Assembly: GCA_020049855.1 (NCBI GenBank)
Contig: JAGVLJ010000078.1
Location: forward strand, 1-33,524
Length of the DNA: 33,524 nucleotides
Direction: 5' to 3'
Origin: Bacteroidia bacterium
Lineage (GTDB): Bacteria > Bacteroidota > Bacteroidia > UKL13-3
Shown: one piece after another, positions 6,884 through 11,420 of the stretch
Numbering within the stretch: position 1 is the stretch's first letter
Layout of the letters: each line of letters begins with the position of its first letter
Position numbers and translations under genes: made by a program
Notes under the pieces: model-generated
What the model was told of the DNA's origin: nothing
Seen by the model: the letters and a program-made list of their open reading frames with translations, nothing else
The model's database searches: none

Positions 6884-7456
6884 TTACACCTCCTCTATAA
6901 TCCTAGCTCCGTTATCACTATCAGCCATAGGCTCGTCTGACTCTCCGAGTTTACCTTTGGCAAAATCACTGGCAAAATCAACAAATACCTTATAGGCCTG
7001 AGTAAATGTAAATTTTTTCTCGGATGACTTTTCTATGATGTTCCGTCTGCCTAAAGTATTTAAAAATTGCTTACGAGACTCAGGGTCTTGCAACTGTTTA
7101 TTGCTTTTAATCAAATCGGAATAGGGCGAGTTATCAAAGTAATTATCTATTTGCTCCAGTTCAAACTCGGCATATTGCAATTCCTCCAAAAAGTTTTTCC
7201 CGTCCTTATCCAGTTCGTAGCAAAGAATAGCAAAAAAAATGCAAATATCACGAGATAGCTGCTCGTTTGTTTCGTAAGACAGGATATATCCGTAATCAGA
7301 TTTTAACTCAAGTTCATACTTAAAACTTTCTTTAAAAAACCGCTCGTAAAACTGCTGGTTGTTTTTTAATTCAATAAATTTAGGGTCGCTGGCCAGAATA
7401 AATTTTCCGTCCATCAAATCGCCTACTATGTCTAGGTGGTATCTAGGAAATTCCAT
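6884..7456 (-). CDS. mksE: MksE-like condensin subunit
   Basis: A 190-residue acidic protein beginning MEFPRYHLDIVGDLMDGKFI. The start, the segment LSRDICIFFAILCYELDKDG and the ending with a small winged-helix-like part (FTFTQAYKVFVDFA, ~152-165) match what I know of the Bacteroidota MksE family. MksE is the accessory (KITE-type) subunit that binds the kleisin and regulates DNA loading of a MukB-like SMC complex. Its ATG overlaps the end of the kleisin gene by 14 bases, implying translational coupling and fixed stoichiometry. It is the last gene of the three-gene operon. A JetD/MksG-type toprim nuclease does not follow it. Confidence 0.8.
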   Translation of the reverse strand: MEFPRYHLDIVGDLMDGKFILASDPKFIELKNNQQFYERFFKESFKYELELKSDYGYILSYETNEQLSRDICIFFAILCYELDKDGKNFLEELQYAEFELEQIDNYFDNSPYSDLIKSNKQLQDPESRKQFLNTLGRRNIIEKSSEKKFTFTQAYKVFVDFASDFAKGKLGESDEPMADSDNGARIIEEV

Positions 7457-8708
7457 ATTTTAAAACTTTAATGGGTGGTACTCGTAAGGTCATTTGGGTG
7501 GTGCGCACTACTTTTTTGTCGGCTTCGGGATCAAACTCCAGCATAATTCCTTCTTCGAATAATAACGTAGTTAACGCAAAAAATTTATCTGTATCTACTG
7601 TTTTGTATTCTGCTTTCAAGGTGCTGCCTGCCCAGTCAAAAAAATTATTCATAGGTAGTTTACTCATCATCATCTCGCGGTAATGTTCTTTATTAAACAG
7701 CCACATACTGGCTCGCACATCTTGCTCCTCAATAATCACTACCTCGTCTCCGGCAAACTGCTCCATATATTCTTTGGCATTATAGTACATATCGTTGCTG
7801 TAAGGATAATCGCGGAATAGCTTAAACACTTGGGGAACCTGTACTTTGTGAGGCTTTTTCAAAAACTCTATCCAGCCGGTGAGAATCATGTTCTCGGTGC
7901 GGATGCGTTCAATCAACGGCAACAGCTCATTGGTCAGAATTTTTGACTGACGCAACAAATCATCATTGGTTTGCACCAGAAAATTATACGTTTTTTCAAA
8001 TTGCTGCCTCACCATTTCATCGTCAAAATTGAGTCTTCGTACGTTCACGTAATTCGAAATATCAAACAAGCGGTTGGTGATGGATTGGCTGTGGTTTACA
8101 TCCAGAATTTGATTGAGCGGGCTGATATAATAATCAATCCAGAAACTTGCCTTACGCACTTTTTCCTGATAATCTATTTTATCTACGTTCGATTTCAACT
8201 CACGGGTTTCTACCAGCAACCGTAGTGTATTTTTTTCAACCGACTCCGAGAAATCTTTTATCTCTCCGTATAAATCGCTGATGCGCTGCATTAAGATATT
8301 GCGGTCTTTGTGAATCCCCTCACGTATTTTCTTGAACAATTCTCCAATAGAGTGTGCATACTTCTCAATGGTTTCGGGAAGCAGCGGACGAAATTCGTTG
8401 AATACAAATTCAAAGAAATTGAAGTACACTCCGCGTATTTCAAAATCCTCTCCTACTTTCCTCAGGATTTTATATTCGTGCAGTTGCGGCTCAATAGCAT
8501 TGTCATGCTCCTTAAGCAATTGATGCAAGCGTTCGCGTTTTATGAAACCATCTTTCGACTGTATTTCGAACAACCCCTTTATGGTATCGAAATAATTCGA
8601 GAGAAAGTATAAAATAGTTTTTGGTTCTGCTTTCATTGGCAACCTCCCTTCCCGTACATCATGGCCAGCGCAGTACAGCAATTTCCGTCCGAAAGGGGAA
8701 ATTGCCAC
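7443..8708 (-). CDS. mksF: MksF/MukF-like kleisin subunit of the condensin complex
   Basis: A 421-residue, helix-rich protein between the SMC and MksE genes. The N-terminal part (residues ~25-100, KTILYFLSNYFDTIKGLF ... DGFIKRERLHQLL) looks like a winged-helix dimerisation region. The middle (~130-200 and 240-290) is heptad-like and helical, and the C-terminal part (~345-421) could be the second winged helix that binds the SMC head. This is the expected MukF/MksF kleisin layout, although kleisins diverge strongly and the call rests partly on the neighbours. The start at 8708 is kept because LLYCAGHDVREGRLP reads as protein. An alternative ATG at 8636 has a GGGAGG sequence 6 bases upstream and would remove 24 residues. 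Confidence 0.75.
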   Translation of the reverse strand: MAISPFGRKLLYCAGHDVREGRLPMKAEPKTILYFLSNYFDTIKGLFEIQSKDGFIKRERLHQLLKEHDNAIEPQLHEYKILRKVGEDFEIRGVYFNFFEFVFNEFRPLLPETIEKYAHSIGELFKKIREGIHKDRNILMQRISDLYGEIKDFSESVEKNTLRLLVETRELKSNVDKIDYQEKVRKASFWIDYYISPLNQILDVNHSQSITNRLFDISNYVNVRRLNFDDEMVRQQFEKTYNFLVQTNDDLLRQSKILTNELLPLIERIRTENMILTGWIEFLKKPHKVQVPQVFKLFRDYPYSNDMYYNAKEYMEQFAGDEVVIIEEQDVRASMWLFNKEHYREMMMSKLPMNNFFDWAGSTLKAEYKTVDTDKFFALTTLLFEEGIMLEFDPEADKKVVRTTQMTLRVPPIKVLKYGIS

Positions 8709-8768
8709 GGCATGGGTATATGGCTTGAAATGATGGGGCGTGTTAAATAATTTTTTTGTCTCATGCCC

Positions 8769-11420
8769 TTATGCTTTTGCACTATCAACCACCTCTCCAT
8801 AAGCTGCATTTACTTTTTCGCTGATATTGATTTTACCTGCCGAAGGAAAAATGAAATAATATTTTCCAAATCCGGGAACCGCATCAGGTGCAGCGAAAAT
8901 AGGAATGAAATGATGCTCCTGACAAAAACGCACCAATTCAGGCCTGTTTTGTTTATCAATGGTAGCCACCTCATCTATAAACAACGAAATACGGTTTTCA
9001 TTATCGTTAATGGCCAGCCGGTTTATGATGCTCATAATAATCACCAAACGAATCATCTTATCCGTTCCGTCCGATTCTATTTGTTCTCCTAAATCAACCG
9101 TTTTATTTTGACCTTTTTTACTCAATGAAAGTTGAATATCGAACAAGTCATCAAAATCAATTTTTTTACCGGTATCCAGGTAGTTATTCAAAATTTTAAG
9201 ATTTTCAGAGTGGTCAAATTCGAATATTAATTGTCCTTTTATTTGTTGAATCTGGCTTATTTTTCTTACTTCATCTACCAGCCGTTTATTATCTATTAAC
9301 TCAATTCGAAGGTTTTCGATATCCGAAATGCGCGCCTGCGAAAGTTTGGTATTAAATTTATTAACAACAAACTCCCTGAACTCTTCATAACGTTTAAGAA
9401 TGGTATAAGCAGGATTGGCAAACTGGGTACTGATGCTTTCCAGCAAGGCAGAAATACTGCTTTCTTTATCTTCAATCAACGCTACTTCCTCTTCAACGTA
9501 CTGAATAAATTCGTCTTCACTGGCAAAGGTGCTTTGCAAACGTTCTCGCAATTTATCAAAAAGTTTATCTTTATTGTTTTTAAGAATAATCCTGTCGGCT
9601 TGATTTAGTTTAATTTTATTGTACAGTTGATCCAGACTTTCGCTTGTTTCATATTCATCGCCTGCAATACCCATTTCTATCAGTTCACGGTAATATTCGG
9701 CAATTTGTTTTATGCGGTCTTCCCTCTTTTTTTTATCCTCAACCAGCTCTTGCAAATCATTGGATGTTTGAGCCAATTTTTTCTCCAGTTTTTTTTGCTC
9801 GGTTTCAAAATGGTCGCGCTCCATTTTAAACTCATTAATTTCTTTAGCTAGTTTGTCAATGGCTTTAGCAAGGGTAGGTTTTAACTTTATACGCTGCAAC
9901 TTAAATTTAATGGTTTCAATTTGTGCGTTAATATCCTGCAGGTCGGTCTGGGCTTTTTCTACATCCTTTAAAATTCCGAGCAAACTTTCCAAATTGATCT
10001 TTTCCAGTTTCAGCGCATCCAGTTCCTCTTTAATTTCATTGGCACTTCGGAAATTTTTCAGGACAATGTTTTCCGAAATATCAATCTCCCCGTCAAACAG
10101 ATTCAATTTGTCGGTAATTTTTTTTATTTTTTTTAATACCTGCTCACTTGGCAAACTCAATACCTGCTCTGATAAAATAGAGTTCATCGTTCTGCGCACG
10201 TCAGCCGAATCGGAAATATTATTCACCAACAAATTGCGGTAATTGCCCACCTGATTTTCTTCGCGTTTTATTTGCTCCGTAATAGATAACAAGCGGGATT
10301 CAACCTGTTTGCTGCTGAGCTTTTGCAACTCGGCCATAGTTATACGGCTTTCCAGATCTTTTCGTTTTTTATCCAAGTTAGAAAGAGACTCAGTGAGTAT
10401 ATTTTGAGGTTCGTAGCTATTTATTTCTTTTACCTCTGCTTCCTTCTCATTTAGCTGGGCGGCTCGGCTGCTTATTTCGGCTTCCTTCCCCCCTATTTTG
10501 CGGTCAAGATCGGCCTTTTGAGGAATCAATTCCTCGTTTATTTCTGTTTTTAGTTTGGCAATACTTTTATCCTTGTCCAGTAATTGATTTTGCAATTGCG
10601 GCAATGTATCCTGATAGGATTTCATAAACCCATAGTACAAGTTGCTAATGATACGTGCCTTGGCGTTGTACTGACTCACCGCCTCGCGAAACTCATCAAA
10701 CTCCCCCTTTACAGCCTTGATGTTCCGGATATCGGTATTTATTTTCATCAAATCCTGAATATCCTTTTTGTTTTTTTGCGAAAAATTGAGCACCTCGTTT
10801 TCCCTGTTATCTGCCACTATCAACGCTTCCTTCAGGTTTTTGTTGGTGATCAGTTTGGTATTAATGAGGTAACGGTAAATACGCGAGAAGTTATTGCTTA
10901 ACCCATCTGTTTTTACCGTATCTTCCAGCCAAACCACCCCGTTGTTTCTGCGCCCGCGCTGGTACACAAACTGGAATACCTCGCGTTTGTCTTTAAACAT
11001 GCTCAATACGAGTCCTTCCTTTATCAAACGCTCTTTTACCTGATCAAAATTGCGCAAACGTTTTTCTTCATCTACAAAAAACTCTTCCCGGTATTCACTG
11101 TCGAACTTAAAATATTCGAGGTTACTATCTGTATCCCGTTTTACCAAAATAGTGTAATACGACTTTTTAAAAACTTCGAACAGAATAAAACTTTGATTAT
11201 GGTTGGGGAAATAGTGATGAATGGTTTCTTTATCCCCTTTACGCTGACCACTGAAGGTCATTTTATTCCCATCAATAATGAAAAGAAAATTAAGGGCGTA
11301 AATGAGCGTACTTTTACCGATATTATTTGGCCCGACCAATTGCAGGGAGTCACAATCATCCAGTCTTAATTCGGCTTTTCCGTACACTTTTGAATTTAGT
11401 ACAATTACTCTTGTCAGCAT
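8769..11420 (-). CDS. mksB: MksB/MukB-like SMC ATPase
   Basis: An 883-residue SMC-type protein. Walker A (GPNNIGKST) is at residues 30-38. A very long, charged coiled-coil region with a central interruption runs from ~230 to ~720. An ABC-signature equivalent (ESDGTDKM, ~782) and Walker B (LFIDE, Asp816-Glu817, with D-loop ATIDKQ) form the second half of the head. SDGT in place of LSGG, and a length near 900, resemble MksB rather than canonical Smc (~1,180) or MukB (~1,480). The start MLTRVIVLNSKVYGKAEL (11420) fits SMC N termini; the upstream in-frame ATG (11492) adds 24 unlikely residues. It is first in the operon, 60 bases before mksF. Known relatives extrude DNA loops for chromosome organisation or restrict plasmids (Wadjet JetC). 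Confidence 0.88.
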   Translation of the reverse strand: MLTRVIVLNSKVYGKAELRLDDCDSLQLVGPNNIGKSTLIYALNFLFIIDGNKMTFSGQRKGDKETIHHYFPNHNQSFILFEVFKKSYYTILVKRDTDSNLEYFKFDSEYREEFFVDEEKRLRNFDQVKERLIKEGLVLSMFKDKREVFQFVYQRGRRNNGVVWLEDTVKTDGLSNNFSRIYRYLINTKLITNKNLKEALIVADNRENEVLNFSQKNKKDIQDLMKINTDIRNIKAVKGEFDEFREAVSQYNAKARIISNLYYGFMKSYQDTLPQLQNQLLDKDKSIAKLKTEINEELIPQKADLDRKIGGKEAEISSRAAQLNEKEAEVKEINSYEPQNILTESLSNLDKKRKDLESRITMAELQKLSSKQVESRLLSITEQIKREENQVGNYRNLLVNNISDSADVRRTMNSILSEQVLSLPSEQVLKKIKKITDKLNLFDGEIDISENIVLKNFRSANEIKEELDALKLEKINLESLLGILKDVEKAQTDLQDINAQIETIKFKLQRIKLKPTLAKAIDKLAKEINEFKMERDHFETEQKKLEKKLAQTSNDLQELVEDKKKREDRIKQIAEYYRELIEMGIAGDEYETSESLDQLYNKIKLNQADRIILKNNKDKLFDKLRERLQSTFASEDEFIQYVEEEVALIEDKESSISALLESISTQFANPAYTILKRYEEFREFVVNKFNTKLSQARISDIENLRIELIDNKRLVDEVRKISQIQQIKGQLIFEFDHSENLKILNNYLDTGKKIDFDDLFDIQLSLSKKGQNKTVDLGEQIESDGTDKMIRLVIIMSIINRLAINDNENRISLFIDEVATIDKQNRPELVRFCQEHHFIPIFAAPDAVPGFGKYYFIFPSAGKINISEKVNAAYGEVVDSAKA

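Follow-up and report, generated by a model that had tools for sequence, protein, structure and literature searches.

The stretch of DNA analysed here (hereinafter the window) is 33,524 nucleotides long and derives from a Bacteroidia bacterium (assembly GCA_020049855.1, contig JAGVLJ010000078.1). Its minus strand carries three genes, found where they had originally been predicted, which encode an SMC, a kleisin and a KITE subunit:

11420..8769, minus strand: SMC subunit (MksB/JetC/MukB-type), 883 aa, ATG start
8768..8637, minus strand: 132-bp gap between the SMC stop and the kleisin start, the nuclease position in relatives, here with no recognisable remnant
8636..7443, minus strand: kleisin subunit (MksF/JetA-type), 397 aa, start most likely at ATG 8636
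7456..6884, minus strand: KITE subunit MksE, 190 aa, Pfam PF21980

The SMC measures 883 aa from its ATG and would reach 907 aa if the GTG start of the ORF list were used. It displays a Walker A motif (GPNNIGKST), an ESDGTD signature, a Walker B motif (LFIDE) and short coiled-coil arms enclosing a small hinge at about residues 394–455. The SDGT signature had been described as divergent; since S-x-G-T is invariant in the alignment of window-type SMCs and in that of the DUF3584/JetC-like SMCs, it is in fact normal for the group. The kleisin had been taken to be 421 aa long, a length that presupposes a start at GTG 8708. As its relatives begin with MxAEPKT at the position of ATG 8636 (MKAEPKT in the window), the 24 extra N-terminal residues are unconserved among these relatives, and a GGGAGG lies immediately upstream of this ATG, the sequence indicates that the true start is most likely ATG 8636, giving a protein of 397 aa. 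The 14-base overlap of the kleisin and KITE genes, also noted in the original prediction, recurs in nearly all relatives within the family.

Family membership of the three subunits

The KITE subunit is recovered directly by the Pfam MksE model (PF21980; 74.2 bits at a cut-off of 27, E = 2.1e-20). For the SMC, single-sequence searches yielded only weak AAA matches and one irrelevant PDB match, and a profile search of the PDB matched mostly coiled coils. Profile-profile comparison with DUF3584/JetC-like SMCs using hhalign returned a probability of 100 (E = 1e-55). The AlphaFold2 model of the SMC (mean pLDDT 78) retrieved MukB first (E = 7e-20) and JetC next in a Foldseek search of the PDB, and VIA aligned it with the MukB head (3euj_A; Z 24.1, rmsd 4.1 over 389 residues). 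Along with the motifs, these results reveal an SMC with a split ABC ATPase head, arms and a MukB/JetC-type hinge.

Single-sequence searches with the kleisin found no family match and no PDB sequence match. Its profile aligned over the full length with the proteins at position A, the kleisin position, of canonical operons (hhalign probability 99.2, E = 1.8e-19), and the best Foldseek rows for its AlphaFold2 model were JetA (8q72_E, E = 1.6e-3) and MukF (E about 1e-3). In VIA the match to MukF reached Z 13.5, barely above the values of up to 13.4 obtained for unrelated helical bundles; hence, for its identity as a MukF/JetA-type kleisin the profile result outweighs the fold. All three subunits are thus homologous to those of the known complexes, and the classification of the operon as a MukBEF/MksBEF-type SMC complex, the core of the Wadjet group, is well supported. 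The MksBEF assignment made at the outset is borne out by the MksE match and by the profile and fold matches of the other two subunits to JetC/MukB and JetA/MukF: the suggested comparison with MksB/E/F- and JetA/B/C-type proteins places every subunit inside this group.

Permuted gene order and the nuclease slot

Canonical Wadjet operons run kleisin-KITE-SMC-nuclease (A-B-C-D), an order that the SMC-kleisin-KITE arrangement of the window does not follow. The original prediction correctly observed that the SMC comes first and that no JetD follows, while missing both the cause and an internal slot for the nuclease: the order SMC-nuclease-kleisin-KITE (C-D-A-B) found in certain relatives is a circular permutation of the canonical one. 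The canonical order is seen on the Salinibacter ruber plasmid pSR76, with a nuclease homologous to that of the slot, and on plasmids of Polaromonas and Halioglobus. In a tree of the SMC, kleisin and KITE proteins, all permuted operons group in one clade to the exclusion of five canonical-order operons (support 100, SH-aLRT only, with single long branches present). The comparison of gene order across relatives, which had been recommended, accordingly unites the SMC-first operons as a single permuted clade and puts the nuclease between SMC and kleisin. The SMC-first operon occurs in roughly 46 of the 395 genomes of the class, distributed over about ten families, and the phage records and viral contigs searched held no relative of it. 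A literature search that covered few subscription papers turned up neither the permuted order nor an internal position for the nuclease.

The 76-kb Salinibacter plasmid pSR76 (L219) is itself the bearer of a four-gene Wadjet-like operon with a compact nuclease. A distant relative in another family of the class, f9 (L132-L135; G318, G213, G381 and G434), has the canonical kleisin-KITE-SMC order and lacks a nuclease gene beside it; GroEL is encoded close by in G213, and a slot-type nuclease occurs on a separate contig (L160) in G381.

Five related operons (G012, G014, G026, G271 and the second copy of G276) encode a nuclease exactly between SMC and kleisin, and not at the end of the operon where it had been expected. 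These are small toprim nucleases of the JetD/DUF7281 type, about 265 aa in length, in which the toprim-like E, the DxD (D-Y-D) and the final LEQ(E/Q) motifs are all kept; the 265-aa product in G026 gives a weak match to JetD_C (26.7 bits, cut-off 22). The five share homology with one another and with the position-D nucleases of canonical plasmid-borne operons (profile probability 99.7, E = 3e-26), and a search against PDB sequences found no match. Their equation with full-length type-I-like JetD was rejected: the catalytic motifs align, the profile comparison is not significant overall (probability 0.4%), and the slot nucleases belong with the shorter position-D/DUF7281 enzymes.

The slot nuclease is intact in only 3 of 64 family genomes. 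G034, a near relative of G012, retains just a C-terminal remnant corresponding to the last ~54 codons (30/52 positions identical to the G012 nuclease), and the larger SMC-kleisin gaps of G007 and G276 contain only repeat-like filler. In the window genome, profile searches detected no JetD_C anywhere, no slot-type nuclease and nothing between or beside the three genes, and no nuclease remnant was found in the 132-bp gap; the earlier statement that no JetD-like gene adjoins the operon therefore extends to the whole genome. Weak nuclease-profile matches in G096, G199, G205, G306, G409 and G059 were set aside as they look like other long-SMC systems, the loci inspected among them being L139, L161 and L162. 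L139:5513-11826 (G059) has the canonical order, its SMC (DUF3584) being 1233 aa and its nuclease (DUF7281) 283 aa long; DUF7281 seems to represent a compact family of JetD that Pfam does not label as such.

The permutation predicts a nuclease between SMC and kleisin; its observed position agrees with this and favours an ancestral nuclease with many losses, the direction that we infer for the clade. At least one loss is attested by the decaying remnant in G034. Alternatively, the core might always have been a nuclease-free condensin, with the five nucleases representing independent insertions into the SMC-kleisin gap. The nuclease bearers are indeed scattered tips on the tree, their nucleases are 33–38% identical whatever the divergence of the core, and an ancestral nuclease without regain entails about 17 losses versus 5 gains, as counted on the sampled tree. 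However, random insertion does not predict the exact cyclic A-B-C-D order, with D after C and before A, and the homology of the five nucleases to each other and to the position-D enzymes, as well as the remnant, also speaks against it; we consider this scenario rather improbable. The identities of SMC and nuclease move in step in three canonical pairs (55/46, 33/43 and 46/46%), unlike those of G012 and G026 (74/37%); for G271 and the second copy of G276 they are 30/38%. As nuclease identity does not track that of the core, nucleases may have been exchanged or re-acquired at this position; the alternative is that the core slowed down on becoming housekeeping.

Inheritance, selection and condensin context

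The core operon, with or without the nuclease, is present as a single copy in 32 of the 35 sampled family genomes, a count that takes in three genomes with a nuclease, and is missing from the remaining three. Across 26 family genomes, 18 of the 23 splits in its tree recur in that of rpoB (mean 0.24 with shuffled names), pointing to mostly vertical descent. Its neighbours are housekeeping genes, with synteny within the family, and G026 (with nuclease) and G033 (without) have identical flanks on both sides; thus, a single chromosomal locus occurs both with the nuclease and without it. All three genes are under strong purifying selection (dN/dS 0.012–0.061), and this holds for the G007-G034 pair, whose nuclease has been lost or has decayed. 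Apart from a few unparsed members, all retain the main ATPase motifs. In genus g14 (L048, L049, L050) the SMC is only 38% identical to that of the window, despite rpoB placing the genus inside the family, which suggests horizontal replacement.

Searches for ScpA (PF02616) and the Smc hinge (PF06470) recovered neither in the window genome or in any family genome searched, while positive controls matched. The look-up proposed with the original prediction thus ended with no ScpA, Smc hinge, JetD_C or slot nuclease in the window genome, which accordingly lacks a recognisable Smc-ScpAB condensin. ScpA is found in 1 of the 46 SMC-first carriers (G271, which has kept its nuclease) and in 80 of the 349 other class genomes, a comparison uncorrected for relatedness. 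Its absence alone proves little, because most of the class (314/395 genomes) is likewise without detected ScpA, most class genomes having neither ScpA nor the SMC-first operon, and this is not special to the carriers. Furthermore, G005, G008 and G028 (91, 96 and 99% complete) have no operon, ScpA or Smc hinge, and no known condensin was detected in them; as these bacteria live without the operon, it cannot be essential throughout the family. In two Bacteroidetes mapped by Hi-C, none of the known condensins was found (PMC10197239).

Origin and role of the operon

The operon is probably a Wadjet-type immune operon that was permuted, lost its nuclease and now works as a condensin on the chromosome; the family membership and the operon history are well supported, and the chromosomal role is what we can best infer from sequence. 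The ancestor would have been a four-gene Wadjet-like system, permuted from A-B-C-D to SMC-nuclease-kleisin-KITE (C-D-A-B), from which the nuclease gene would then have been lost, repeatedly within the clade, leaving SMC-kleisin-KITE. By analogy with MukBEF, the kleisin, carrying a KITE dimer, would close an SMC dimer joined at the small hinge, and ATP would drive the entrapment of DNA and the extrusion of loops by the complex. Such extrusion may compact and segregate the chromosome in bacteria without Smc-ScpAB. It is the combination of a vanished nuclease, housekeeping-like inheritance and absence of the usual chromosome-folding machine that gives the operon the look of an immune system turned chromosome folder. 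Of the two roles originally offered, a condensin of some Bacteroidota is favoured, and a loop extruder with its effector elsewhere is disfavoured by the lack of JetD_C or a slot nuclease in the genome.

A defensive function appears unlikely. The complex would in that case sense plasmids or the DNA of phages and would either call in an unrelated nuclease from another locus or restrict by a means other than cleavage. The closest four-gene relatives do reside on plasmids or beside recombinases, and nuclease-bearing versions persist in three family genomes. Nevertheless, neither JetD_C nor a slot-type nuclease is available in the window genome, and a single-copy, mostly vertically inherited operon with housekeeping neighbours and very low dN/dS is unlike a defence gene. 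Moreover, G013 (L153:4111-10666) and G029 (L154:4994-11582) carry, besides the core operon in its nuclease-less form, a separate and complete type-I-like Wadjet (kleisin-KITE-SMC-JetD), suggesting that their defence against plasmids does not chiefly depend on the core. That the operon is a decaying, functionless relic, as the loss of the nuclease and of the entire operon in G005, G008 and G028 might imply, is hardly credible and is refuted for the window lineage by the purifying selection on all three genes, including in the G007-G034 pair; the near-universal retention of the ATPase motifs also speaks against it.

The operon can be set beside several known systems. The SMC, kleisin and KITE are homologous to JetC, JetA and JetB of Wadjet/JetABCD (MksBEFG), and relatives of the window operon bear a JetD/DUF7281-type toprim nuclease inside the operon. 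Unlike Wadjet, the window genome has no nuclease, the order is permuted to C-[D]-A-B, and the operon is a core, mostly vertically transmitted one; the 883-aa SMC and ~265-aa slot nuclease also differ from those of the type-I-like Wadjet seen here (about 1130 and 390 aa, respectively). Escherichia coli MukBEF is likewise a nuclease-less complex of the Wadjet group in cells without Smc-ScpAB, and MukB came first among the fold matches to the SMC, but sequence identity is low, the arms are much shorter (883 aa versus the 1467-residue MukB chain), and the phylum and gene order are different. MksBEF of Pseudomonas and Corynebacterium (mksFEB(G)) has the same three subunit types, including the MksE Pfam family, whereas its order is F-E-B-G and not SMC-first, and the Corynebacterium MksB is 1111 aa long (PMC10123090). 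With Smc-ScpAB the operon would share its proposed cellular role; the Smc hinge and ScpA are absent from the window genome and the family.

A member without a nuclease is not new as such, since MukBEF and several other members of the group have none (PMC7617805). A recent catalogue of the group kept operons with MksB proteins above 890 aa and MksF proteins of 400–1200 aa and sought the nuclease only as a flanking match; the window operon, with its 883-aa SMC, 397-aa kleisin and internal nuclease slot, would fall outside these rules (PMC7617805). A Wadjet-like defensive ancestry of MukBEF and MksBEF has been proposed in a review (PMC10586767). Should the clade preserve such a transition in progress, as suggested below, it would provide a model for the origin of MukBEF-like condensins and would name the condensin of some Bacteroidota without Smc-ScpAB; in any case, the operon offers a concrete candidate for a condensin where ScpA and the Smc hinge are absent.

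This one clade allows several states of the same operon to be compared: with the nuclease next to recombinases, with the nuclease at the chromosomal core position, with only a decayed nuclease left, and without any nuclease and mostly vertically inherited. We tentatively suggest that the clade preserves a change from immunity to condensin in progress; on this view, the slot would give a housekeeping condensin an optional nuclease module that has been lost and perhaps regained. The nuclease-bearing copies of G271 and G276 adjoin a tyrosine integrase or two serine recombinases, the integrase being beside the operon of G271. Homologous HTH-type regulators (L130:15173-16096 and L131:6965-7861, one with HTH_11/WCX) lie near both of these recombinase-associated four-gene operons and possibly control them. 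The second, nuclease-bearing copy of G276 is further flanked by an AbiEi-type antitoxin (L131:1770-2663) and SbcD/SbcC-like genes (L131:13181-17496).
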